Shown: positions 37,682 to 40,405 of the stretch, one piece after another
Position numbering within the stretch: the stretch's first letter is position 1
Layout: each line of letters starts with the position of its first letter
Origin: Mangrovimonas cancribranchiae
GTDB taxonomy: Bacteria; Bacteroidota; Bacteroidia; Flavobacteriales; Flavobacteriaceae
Direction: 5' to 3'
Length of the DNA: 64,000 bases
NCBI RefSeq assembly: GCF_037126245.1
Contig: NZ_CP136925.1
Coordinates: 434,001-498,000 of the forward strand
Program-made: the position numbers and the translations under genes
The notes under the pieces: generated by a model
Told to the model about the DNA's origin: nothing
Seen by the model: only the letters and a program-made list of their open reading frames with translations
Database searches by the model: none

Positions 37682-39715
37682 TTATTTCTCAATCAATCCT
37701 GCACGTCTTAATAAAGCTTCGGGTTGTGGTTCTTTACCACGAAAACGCTTGTATAAAGTCATTGGATCTTCGGTGCCACCTTGAGAGAGTACGTTCTCTT
37801 TAAATTTATCTGCTACAGTTTTACTAAAAATGCCGTCTTCTTTAAAATATTCAAAAGCATCGGCATCTAAAACTTCTGCCCATTTATAGCTATAATATCC
37901 TGAAGAATATCCACCTTGAAAAATATGAGAAAACGAGGTGCTCATACAATTTTCAGAAACATCTGGATAAAGTTTGGTGTTTTTAAAAGCATTAAGTTCG
38001 TGACTTTTTACACTTTTTATATGTGATGGGTCTTGACCATGCCAACTCATATCTAATAATCCGAAGCTTAACTGACGTAACGTTTGCATACCTTCGTGAA
38101 AAGTTGATGACGCTTTAATTTTTTCTATTAAGTCCATTGGAATCACTTCGCCAGTTTCATAATGTGTGGCAAACAATTCTAAGGCTTCTTTTTCGTAACA
38201 CCAATTTTCTAACACTTGACTTGGTAGTTCTACAAAATCCCAAAAAACACTTGTTCCTGAAAGACTTGGGTAGGTTGTGTTTGCTAGCATACCATGTAGG
38301 GCATGTCCAAACTCGTGGAACAATGTGGTTACCTCGTTAAAAGTTAATAACGACGGTTTTGTTTTTGTTGGTTTGGTAAAATTACATACAATAGAAATGT
38401 GTGGTCTGCTGTTTTCACCATTTTTTACATATTGCGGTTTGTAAACAGTCATCCATGCGCCATTGCGTTTTCCTTCACGTGGGAAAAAGTCGGCGTAGAA
38501 AATAGAAATATAGTTACCCTTATTATCGGTTACTTTATAGGTTAAAACGTCTGGATGGTATTTATCAATAGTGTCAATTTCTTCAAAATTTAGTCCGTAA
38601 AGTTTTTTGGCAACAGTAAAAACACCATTAATAACGTTTTCTAACTTAAAATAAGGTTTTAGCTTTTCGTCGTCTAGGTCGAAAAGTTTTTGTTTTAGTT
38701 TTTCTGAATAATAAGCGCTATCCCATTTTTGTAATTGGTCAATATTATCCAAATCTTTAGCAAAATCGCTTAGTTTTTTAAACTCTTTAGTAGCAGCGGG
38801 TTTGGCTTTTTCTAAAAGGTCGTTTAAAAAGGTGTTTACGGTTTCTGGGGTTTTTGCCATACGCTCTTCGAGAACAAAATGGGCGTGGGTTTTATAGCCT
38901 AATAAGTTAGCGCGTTTATGACGTAGATTGGCAATTTTTAAAACAATATCTTGGTTGTCAAGATTATCGTTATGAAACCCTTTAGAACCAAATGCAAGCG
39001 CTAGTTTTTTTCGTAATTCACGGTTATCTGCATAGGTCATGAATGGAATATAACTAGGGTATTGTAATGTAATAATCCAACCTTCTTTTCCTTTTTGTTC
39101 GGCAGTTTGTTTAGCATCTTCTTTAGCGCTTTCAGGAAGTCCAGATAAATCGGCTTCGTTGGTAACATGAAGCTCATATTTATTGGTTTCTGCTAGAACA
39201 TTTTCACCAAAAGTGAGTTTTAGTTTACTGAGTTCTTTATCTATTTCGCGAAGTTGTTGTTTTTTGTCTTCGGGTAGGTTAGCACCGTTTCTTGAAAAGC
39301 TTTTGTACTTTTTATCTAGAAGTGTTTGTTGCTCTTTATTTAGGTTTAAAGAATCTTTTTGATTGTAAACTTCTTTAACACGTTTAAATAACGCTTCATT
39401 TAAAGTAATGTCGTTACTAAACTCAGATAGCAAAGGTGAAACTTCTTGTGCTATTTTTTGAATATCTTCGTTGGTTTCAGCAGAATTAAGGTTAAAGAAA
39501 ATACTTGAGACTCTATCCAACTGTTCTCCAGAAAAATCTAAGGCTTCTATAGTATTCTTAAAACTAGGTGCTTCTGAATTATGTGTAATGTCGTTTATTT
39601 CAGCTTTAGCATTTTTTATAGCTTGTTTAAAAGCAGGAAGAAAATGGTCGTTTTTAATTTTTGAAAAAGGTGCTGTATTGTGTTGTGTGTCAAAAGGTTG
39701 TTTTAAAATAATCAT
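37682..39715 (-). CDS. dcp: M3 family zinc metallopeptidase (Dcp/oligopeptidase A type)
   Basis: 677 residues. The zinc site HEFGHALHGM and the downstream Glu in SVFWDFVELPSQV define family M3. Further hallmarks are YADFFPREGKRNGAW and FSHIFQGGYSSGYYSYKWAE. There is no signal peptide, so it is a cytosolic peptidyl-dipeptidase or oligopeptidase that finishes peptide degradation. The N-terminus (MIILKQPFDTQHNTAPFSKI) matches family starts. The gene symbol is the best fit; prlC-type specificity cannot be excluded. Confidence 0.92.
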   Translation of the reverse strand: MIILKQPFDTQHNTAPFSKIKNDHFLPAFKQAIKNAKAEINDITHNSEAPSFKNTIEALDFSGEQLDRVSSIFFNLNSAETNEDIQKIAQEVSPLLSEFSNDITLNEALFKRVKEVYNQKDSLNLNKEQQTLLDKKYKSFSRNGANLPEDKKQQLREIDKELSKLKLTFGENVLAETNKYELHVTNEADLSGLPESAKEDAKQTAEQKGKEGWIITLQYPSYIPFMTYADNRELRKKLALAFGSKGFHNDNLDNQDIVLKIANLRHKRANLLGYKTHAHFVLEERMAKTPETVNTFLNDLLEKAKPAATKEFKKLSDFAKDLDNIDQLQKWDSAYYSEKLKQKLFDLDDEKLKPYFKLENVINGVFTVAKKLYGLNFEEIDTIDKYHPDVLTYKVTDNKGNYISIFYADFFPREGKRNGAWMTVYKPQYVKNGENSRPHISIVCNFTKPTKTKPSLLTFNEVTTLFHEFGHALHGMLANTTYPSLSGTSVFWDFVELPSQVLENWCYEKEALELFATHYETGEVIPMDLIEKIKASSTFHEGMQTLRQLSFGLLDMSWHGQDPSHIKSVKSHELNAFKNTKLYPDVSENCMSTSFSHIFQGGYSSGYYSYKWAEVLDADAFEYFKEDGIFSKTVADKFKENVLSQGGTEDPMTLYKRFRGKEPQPEALLRRAGLIEK

Positions 39716-39791: not shown

Positions 39792-39826
39792 TTTGGTTTT
39801 TTTTCAAATATTAGGTGTTATATTTG
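39792..39826 (+). promoter_or_regulatory. Promoter of the candidate small RNA
   Basis: Plus-strand TTG (39793-39795, within TTTTGG), 23-nt spacer, then TATATTTG (39819-39826). This fits the flavobacterial pattern TTG-N17-23-TAnnTTTG. The only thing downstream on this strand before a terminator is 90 nt of non-coding sequence. Confidence 0.6.
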
Positions 39827-39830
39827 CACC

Positions 39831-39920
39831 GATTTTTCATAAGTGATTTAAAAGGAACCCCCTTTTAAATAAATTGGTTAATAGCGTTAAAAGCCTCGAC
39901 AACTGTCGAGGCTTTTATTT
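39831..39920 (+). ncRNA. Candidate ~90-nt structured small RNA
   Basis: Lies in the gap between dcp and purE, on the opposite strand to both. From a predicted start near 39831-39833 the transcript would contain a perfect 10-bp hairpin (ATTTAAAAGG / CCTTTTAAAT, 39846-39870, loop AACCC), an unpaired linker (39871-39888) and a strong terminator hairpin (39889-39916) with a T-rich tail. No open frame of note fits. It is not tRNA, tmRNA, SRP RNA or 6S RNA by eye. Promoter plus internal hairpin plus terminator make this a good candidate; expression is unproven. Confidence 0.55.
39889..39916. terminator. Terminator between purE and dcp, also ending the candidate sRNA
   Basis: 12-13 bp perfect stem (AAAAGCCTCGAC / GTCGAGGCTTTT) around a tight AACT-type loop, with T-rich tails in both directions (TTTTATTTTTAT on plus, TTTTAACG on minus). 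The stronger T tail is on the plus strand, where no protein gene precedes it. Confidence 0.88.
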
Positions 39921-39925
39921 TTATA

Positions 39926-40405
39926 TTATAAATTTTTGGCAGATTCGTGAACTTTCGCTTTTAAGTTTTCTTTGTAATCTATAATTTTTTCTAGGATATT
40001 TTTATTCGAACTTCCCAAAATTTGCGCAGCTAAAATACCTGCATTTTTTGCGCCATCTAAAGCAACAGTGGCAACAGGAACACCGCCAGGCATTTGTAAA
40101 ATAGATAGAACAGAGTCCCAACCATCAATAGAATTTCTGCTTTTTACAGGAACACCAATTACAGGAAGTGGCGATAAAGAGGCAACCATACCTGGTAAAT
40201 GAGCCGCACCACCAGCACCAGCAATTATAACAGCAATATCTCTTTTATGAGCATTGGAACCATAGTCGAATAATTTGTCTGGAGTACGATGTGCTGATAC
40301 AATATCAACGTCTACTTCTATATCAAATTCTTTTAAAATATCGATAGCGTCTTGCATGACAGGCAAATCGCTTTTACTTCCCATTATTATACCTACTTTA
40401 CTCAT
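39926..40405 (-). CDS. purE: N5-carboxyaminoimidazole ribonucleotide mutase
   Basis: 159 residues, class I PurE. Signature [21 protein letters not shown] and [14 protein letters not shown] (the CO2/phosphate loop). It moves the carboxylate from N5-CAIR to CAIR in purine synthesis, using the product of purK encoded 1 nt upstream. Length is typical. Confidence 0.97.

Follow-up and report, generated by a model that had tools for sequence, protein, structure and literature searches.

What is encoded in the gap between purE and a dcp-like peptidase gene of Mangrovimonas cancribranchiae, and on what could its product act? An earlier note on this DNA (the window, 64,000 nucleotides in all) had proposed a plus-strand small RNA (sRNA) of about 90 nt with its own promoter, an internal hairpin and a terminator. 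That the gap holds a genuine and conserved sRNA gene now seems nearly certain. Its RNA is probably a trans-acting, base-pairing regulator of envelope mRNAs that would act through the linker between hairpin and terminator, a reading that draws on conservation and complementarity. The features concerned are collected in Table 1.

Table 1. Features of the purE-dcp gap and its two flanking genes, in window positions.
Feature	Positions	Strand	Basis
M3 peptidase gene (dcp/oligopeptidase A-like), divergent neighbour	37682..39715	-	NCBIfam PRK10911, PRK10280
Sigma-A-type promoter, TTG-N23-TATATTTG	39793..39826	+	sequence; box spacing kept in relatives
Small RNA, about 90 nt, predicted +1 G39831	39831..39921	+	models R1-R3, fold z -5.58, covariation
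Outer stem P1, 5' GAUUU arm with A-rich stretch before and at the edge of the linker	39831..39876	+	covariation in relatives
Inner hairpin P2, 10 bp, 5-nt loop	39846..39870	+	fold; covariation in relatives
Candidate seed UUGGUUAAUAGC	39874..39885	+	linker conservation; complement in mRNA leaders
Intrinsic terminator, 13 bp	39888..39917	+	terminator scan, fold, covariation in relatives
purE, converging neighbour	39926..40405	-	TIGR01162, 210.2 bits, cut-off 149.6

The promoter claimed by the note is present in the sequence, with TTG at 39793-39795, 23 nt, and then the box at 39819-39826; the predicted +1 lies 4 nt past the end of the box. In 25 of 28 aligned rows a box of the TAnnTT type ends 4-5 nt upstream of +1, which is the spacing reported, in the accessible text of the paper, for sigma-A of Flavobacterium psychrophilum, where the box is TAnnTTTG at -12 to -5 (PMC9723704). 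The promoter box and the U tail of the terminator are both plus-oriented and so place the RNA on the plus strand. The peptidase gene, whose best NCBIfam matches (PRK10911, 603.4 bits; PRK10280, 564.5) are both below their own cut-offs, lies on the minus strand, as does purE, so no recognisable protein gene stands ahead of the plus-strand terminator, which agrees with the note. Only one plus-strand ORF of at least 30 aa overlaps the sRNA, a 36-aa frame with a TTG start that extends into the end of purE. The own promoter of the sRNA, its compact structure, intrinsic terminator and lack of an evident ORF are the properties looked for in a trans-acting sRNA. The promoter spacer upstream of the sRNA contains a partly palindromic stretch like TTATGCATACATAAT at six loci, possibly a regulator site.

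The RNA from 39831 to 39922 has a predicted fold of -29.2 kcal/mol, while 200 shuffles have a mean of -12.95 (sd 2.91; z -5.58) and none is as good. This fold reproduces the perfect 10-bp hairpin of the note (39846-39855 with 39861-39870, loop 5), followed by the linker and the 13-bp terminator stem; both of these had been claimed and both are there, the linker measuring 17 nt by the fold rather than 18. The strong terminator with its T tail on plus was also borne out by a consensus scan of 4 kb, in which the plus-strand terminator at the sRNA end has the longest stem of 6 (shuffle mean 3.2); the promoter model of that scan is sigma-70, with the Bacteroidota box outside its coverage. Folds of many relatives have an outer stem, P1, between the 5' U-run and the A-rich stretch ahead of the linker; it encloses the variable P2, and the terminator forms P3. 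In this genome P1 is an alternative pairing only (about 39831-39835 with 39871-39875), seen in one fold and absent from two other predictions.

Across 35 model-aligned members, 18 of 24 base pairs show changes on both sides (P1 4/7, P2 5/5, P3 9/12), 95.0% of cells pair, and the covariation score is 0.407 versus 0.164 for shuffles and at most 0.100 for slid structures, although these counts come from a model-fitted alignment that leans towards its own structure. The 5' part alone has a mean z of -1.96 against shuffles (28 rows). RNAalifold on the MAFFT alignment (A3) recovers the terminator only (8 pairs), in our view because loop lengths shift P2. The predicted unpaired probability of the linker has a mean of 0.63 and a minimum of 0.21, compared with 0.40 for the whole RNA.

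The gene is conserved in place. A 146-bp stretch matches the same gap in four genomes (G001, G002, G003 and G031); it has some match in 10 of 60 genomes, and of the other five, the four that were compared share the terminator only. R1, a covariance model from five sequences, matches 91 of 397 family genomes and misses members (G027 was found only with the broader model R3), while R3 matches 21 of 40 family genomes. In a phylum sample R3 matches 11 of 296 genomes, of which three are below E 1e-5, all Flavobacteriaceae, and five are weak matches outside the family (G040, G677, G555, G576 and G679); the family scan with R1 and the phylum scan with R3 score only 10-14 candidates per genome, so misses are no proof of absence. 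Of the 31 loci that were read, 28, in as many genomes with the present one counted, lie between a dcp-like gene and purE, and the remaining three hold a different RNA that shares the linker; since the loci had been picked out by models or DNA matches, they are no unbiased sample. TTAATAGC occurs in sRNA orientation in all 28 gaps, with more than one copy in six. An exact pattern yields 58 stretches in named genomes, mostly of Flavobacteriaceae (Olleya, Bizionia, Lacinutrix, Formosa, Xanthomarina, Hanstruepera, Gelidibacter, Mesoflavibacter and others); eight, from unrelated groups, are probably due to chance.

The reading of the gap as an sRNA gene, and the check that the note had proposed for it (conservation of the gap and compensatory changes in both stems), are thereby supported: the gene is kept in place over many genera, its promoter box spacing is maintained, and its stems covary in the model-fitted alignment. 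The near symmetry of the terminator, towards which purE is transcribed, would suit a bidirectional terminator shared with purE plus an antisense or spacer transcript affecting only dcp, with no regulator acting in trans; given the covarying stems, conserved linker, tandem copies, own promoter and matching leaders elsewhere, this is scarcely credible. As for the note's statement that the RNA belongs to no known class, it holds as far as tested: Rfam 15 gave no match at the gathering cut-off in the 64-kb window, and a relaxed search (E up to 5) gave 26 matches, all under their cut-offs and most overlapping the terminator. Flavo-1 (RF01705) and 6S-flavo (RF01685), described in the text available of PMC2864571 as structured RNAs of the Bacteroidota, the phylum of this sRNA, have no match in the window at their cut-offs.

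The most conserved part of the sRNA is the linker, UUGRUUAAUAGC. TTG.TTAATAGC is present in 28 of 28 rows of A3, the rows having been picked by TTAATAGC and three loci left out (L032, L041 and L081, the last without a 5' anchor). The dot position is A in 21 rows, G in three, this genome included, and without a base in four; the seed of this genome thus has G where most leaders call for A, which would give a G.U pair. Together with the leaders complementary to it, the linker looks like the functional core of the RNA: a conserved region, partly exposed by prediction, that is complementary to mRNA initiation regions.

The complement, GCUAUUAAUCAA, is located shortly before start codons, often directly behind a promoter box. 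The 12-mer GCTATTAATCAA has 222 matches in 43 family genomes versus 14 for the backward control, and 17 versus 5 in 27 genomes of other families of the order; the 222 include 12 sites of one genome (G026) that are a single dispersed repeat. With G026 left out, the median count is 9 in 21 genomes with an R3 match and 1 in 18 without; one genome without an R3 match (G024) has 11 sites. In 249 family genomes the pattern GCTATTAATCAAN{3,28}ATGA has 234 matches versus 5 backward, some of the 234 being the complement of the sRNA gene itself, while the reverse orientation near ATGA has 106 versus 9. The figures 234, 106 and 222 are match counts summed from tables, with a site having two ATGA counted twice. 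Genomes carrying the sRNA have an excess of such leaders: matches occur in 52 of 60 genomes with an R1 match versus 42 of 189 without and, after one match is subtracted per R1-positive genome, still in 39 of 60 (Fisher p 3e-9), a co-occurrence that shared ancestry confounds.

Near starts the orientation is biased. An ORF start (at least 40 aa, frame closed upstream) follows 38 of 90 sense sites versus 3 of 30 reverse sites (p 0.0015), leaving 52 of the 90 sense sites with no ORF start by the rule used. A promoter box 4-5 nt before the motif was found at 21 of the 38 ORF-start sense sites versus 0 of 29 parsed reverse sites, so that the mRNA of some of these genes would begin with the 12-mer; the motif start is 18-39 nt from the AUG in the 38. 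The sense sites comprise 30 given by the tool and 60 fetched (56 in listing order, after removal, partly by eye, of self-matches, duplicates and sites already read; four out of order, L394-L397, two of which are ORF starts), and the reverse sites comprise 10 given and 20 fetched in listing order with a few duplicate or already-read sites left out, one of them (L215) not parsed. Without the four out-of-order sites the comparison is 36 of 86 versus 3 of 30 (p 0.0014). The 30 tool-given sense loci alone have 12 ORF starts, with the box at 4-5 nt in only three of the 12.

This bias bears on whether the 12-mer near +1 is instead a DNA element that RNA polymerase or a regulator reads, as an operator or an initially transcribed sequence, to which the sRNA linker would carry the complement by chance. 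Matches do exceed controls in both orientations, some sites are far from starts or near terminators, the 12 sites of G026 are a dispersed repeat, and coevolution of seed and leader was not seen. On the last point, in six genomes taken to have the UUGUUAAUAGC form of the seed, GCTATTAACAA leaders number 6 (one being the sRNA gene itself) versus 4 backward, one of the six (G345) having been grouped there solely via the genus it has in common with G157; in 24 other genomes they number 22 versus 16. A DNA element does not account for the orientation bias near starts, and in the sRNA the 12-mer keeps one place, flanked by covarying stems and about 40 nt into the transcript, a position in which an operator would have no obvious function. 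It is accordingly a distinctly unlikely reading. The 12-mer may have more than one role, since reverse matches exceed the control and several sites precede terminators in either orientation. The G026 repeat, in 12 copies, is built around GCTATTAATCAATT...CCCTTTCTATA.CAATCGTCC.

In the own genome, TGRTTAATAGC has 24 sites, compared with 5 for the same pattern written backward. One of the 24 belongs to the sRNA itself and another to the 3'UTR of an efflux permease gene (Pfam ACR_tran); two more stand ahead of terminators. Among the 22 sites other than the sRNA and the efflux 3'UTR, the complement GCTATTAAYCA begins an ORF in mRNA orientation at nine. These encode a DUF3078 protein (with the motif within the first codons), an esterase-like protein, a 39-aa secreted peptide, the T9SS sortase PorU (N-terminal model 137.5 bits, cut-off 40), an M28 peptidase, a TPR/cyclase-domain protein, a Poly_export/SLBB protein of polysaccharide export, a DegT aminotransferase and a WG-repeat protein. 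For nine leaders of this genome, the duplex predicted with the sRNA linker lies between -13.6 and -18.6 kcal/mol. Six of the eight sites taken as real starts are signal-peptide-like.

Across genomes, 22 of the 38 ORF-start sites encode proteins that look exported by a crude rule. By the same kind of rule, an earlier target set is signal-peptide-like in 19 of 37 cases, and in 17 of 26 at 100 aa or longer, versus 10 of 54 window ORFs; because the ATGA pattern itself selects for MK starts, the own-genome sites, found without it, give the cleaner measure of this excess. Recurrent targets, grouped by eye, include a secreted peptide of 39-50 aa in ten genomes, an OmpA-type protein in six (one by its Pfam OmpA domain, L180, and five by N-terminal likeness), the DegT aminotransferase (two loci) and, right behind the leader tag at five loci, a 41-aa putative membrane peptide (..IQP..GL.L). 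The OmpA-type protein and the 39-50-aa peptide are the examples from other genera. The conserved 39-50-aa peptide has a sequence like MKKLLLSVAALMFATLLFSQDD..., and at three of the loci with the 41-aa peptide (L122, L159 and L171) a gene beginning MKQLIT... starts about 120 nt further downstream.

The linker is also found in other RNAs. At locus L062 (G000, 2589636-2589712), the 3'UTR of the RND/AcrB-type efflux permease gene ends in a stem-loop, UUGAUUAAUAGC and a terminator, and may be a 3'UTR-derived sibling of the sRNA. Six further loci look like counterparts of L062 by a C-terminal ending of the KMWL.RK type; one of them, L086, reads TTAGTTAATAGC. A third type of RNA, at six loci with no recognised ORF directly upstream, has a shared cgtctata...agtgttagt block, then TTGRTTAATAGC and a terminator. 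The recurrence of the same linker and terminator in several unrelated transcripts would also fit a protein-binding site, with the RNA sequestering that protein, but sequestration does not predict an exact complement enriched at mRNA starts, and the idea is quite improbable.

The mechanism favoured here is base pairing in trans. Transcription of the sRNA would start at a housekeeping promoter of its own, run away from dcp and stop at its own terminator; in the RNA, the 5' stem-loop and terminator hairpin would hold the 12-nt linker between them. The proposed partner of the linker is GCUAUUAAYCAA, which short-leader mRNAs carry at their 5' end or close to it, some 10-46 nt ahead of the AUG; more than half of the tagged mRNAs code, by the crude rule, for exported proteins. 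With the AUG only 18-39 nt from the motif start, the duplex would occupy the sequence immediately ahead of the start codon. The mRNAs of the Bacteroidota are without Shine-Dalgarno sequences according to the literature available, and FopS of Bacteroides is shown, in the accessible text, to act by a block near the start codon (PMC11697453). These points favour repression, in which the duplex would most likely hinder 30S loading and lower synthesis of the tagged proteins. The main alternative is protection, with annealing at the 5' end of the mRNA shielding it from decay and the sRNA thus activating; at 21 of 38 ORF-start sites the spacing of 4-5 nt from box to motif would put the motif at the 5' terminus as this calls for, but a duplex so close to the AUG would also crowd the initiation region, and activation is considered unlikely, if worth keeping in view.

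A broader proposal, given somewhat less than an even chance, is an envelope regulon, in one clade of Flavobacteriaceae, that works in the absence of Hfq and RRM proteins. The mRNAs of exported proteins would share the tag at their start, and it would be read by sibling RNAs that show its complement before a terminator, namely the purE-dcp sRNA in one to three tandem copies and the efflux permease 3'UTR. If so, the efflux sibling would couple transcription of the efflux pump to synthesis of surface proteins. Hfq was found in 0 of 10 genomes by a search positive in 5 of 14 controls, and RRM_1 in 0 of 10 by one positive in 2 of 14, Bacteroides ihuae among them. The Bacteroidota are said, in the text available, to lack classical chaperones (PMC11697453). 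How their sRNAs work is made directly testable here by the highly conserved seed and the ready list of leaders (OmpA-type, PorU, polysaccharide export, secreted peptide).

A literature search, with subscription papers and supplements outside its scope, gave no earlier description of this sRNA, and text searches for the 12-mer in four spellings returned only papers unrelated by title. RNAs of this kind are known; within the literature searched, the family seems to be new, and so does the use of a shared tag near the 5' end as an address.

The nearest comparison is with FopS and GibS of Bacteroides thetaiotaomicron, described in the accessible text as short sRNAs that pair with initiation regions of envelope (SusC) mRNAs and are bound by the RRM protein RbpB, FopS having a housekeeping promoter and many copies (PMC11697453). 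The sRNA is like them in being short, in its proposed aim at initiation regions of envelope mRNAs, and in a similar 5' U-run in this genome. In this genome the RNA has at its 5' end GAUUUUUCAUAAG, which is similar to GTGTTTTTCATAG, the start of the FopS consensus as published (PMC11697453); this end is unpaired in the minimum-energy fold, and could be taken for a 5' anti-start-codon seed of the FopS/GibS type (UUUUUCAU against AUGAAAAA). The GibS model (RF04182) does score weakly in the window, at 28.8 bits, but its cut-off is 115. The CAU after the U-run is kept in 15 of 28 rows and missing in 13, and in relatives the 5' end is paired in P1, four of whose seven pairs changed on both sides. 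Membership in this type is therefore highly improbable, all the more as its partner, an RRM protein, was not detected in the 10 genomes; a FopS-like 5' seed was considered as the main reading and dropped, given the loss of CAU and the pairing of the U-run in relatives' folds. The seed of FopS and GibS is located at the 5' end, while that proposed here is in the linker before the terminator.

Rfp18 of Flavobacterium psychrophilum, compared by its description in the text available (PMC9723704), comes from the same bacterial family and is likewise conserved and structured, with exported proteins as targets; its pairing region is the third stem-loop instead of a linker. VrrA is reported, in the part of the literature accessible, not to need Hfq stringently. 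Like MicA, RybB and VrrA, the sRNA would be one RNA aimed at outer-membrane mRNAs near their start codons, those of OmpA among them. These RNAs of Gammaproteobacteria are tied to sigma-E and usually to Hfq, whereas the purE-dcp sRNA has a housekeeping-type promoter, Hfq was found in none of the 10 genomes, and the proposed targets share one 12-nt tag. If the regulatory reading is true, Flavobacteriaceae would have, in genomes where neither Hfq nor RRM_1 was detected, their own counterpart of the outer-membrane sRNAs of Gammaproteobacteria.
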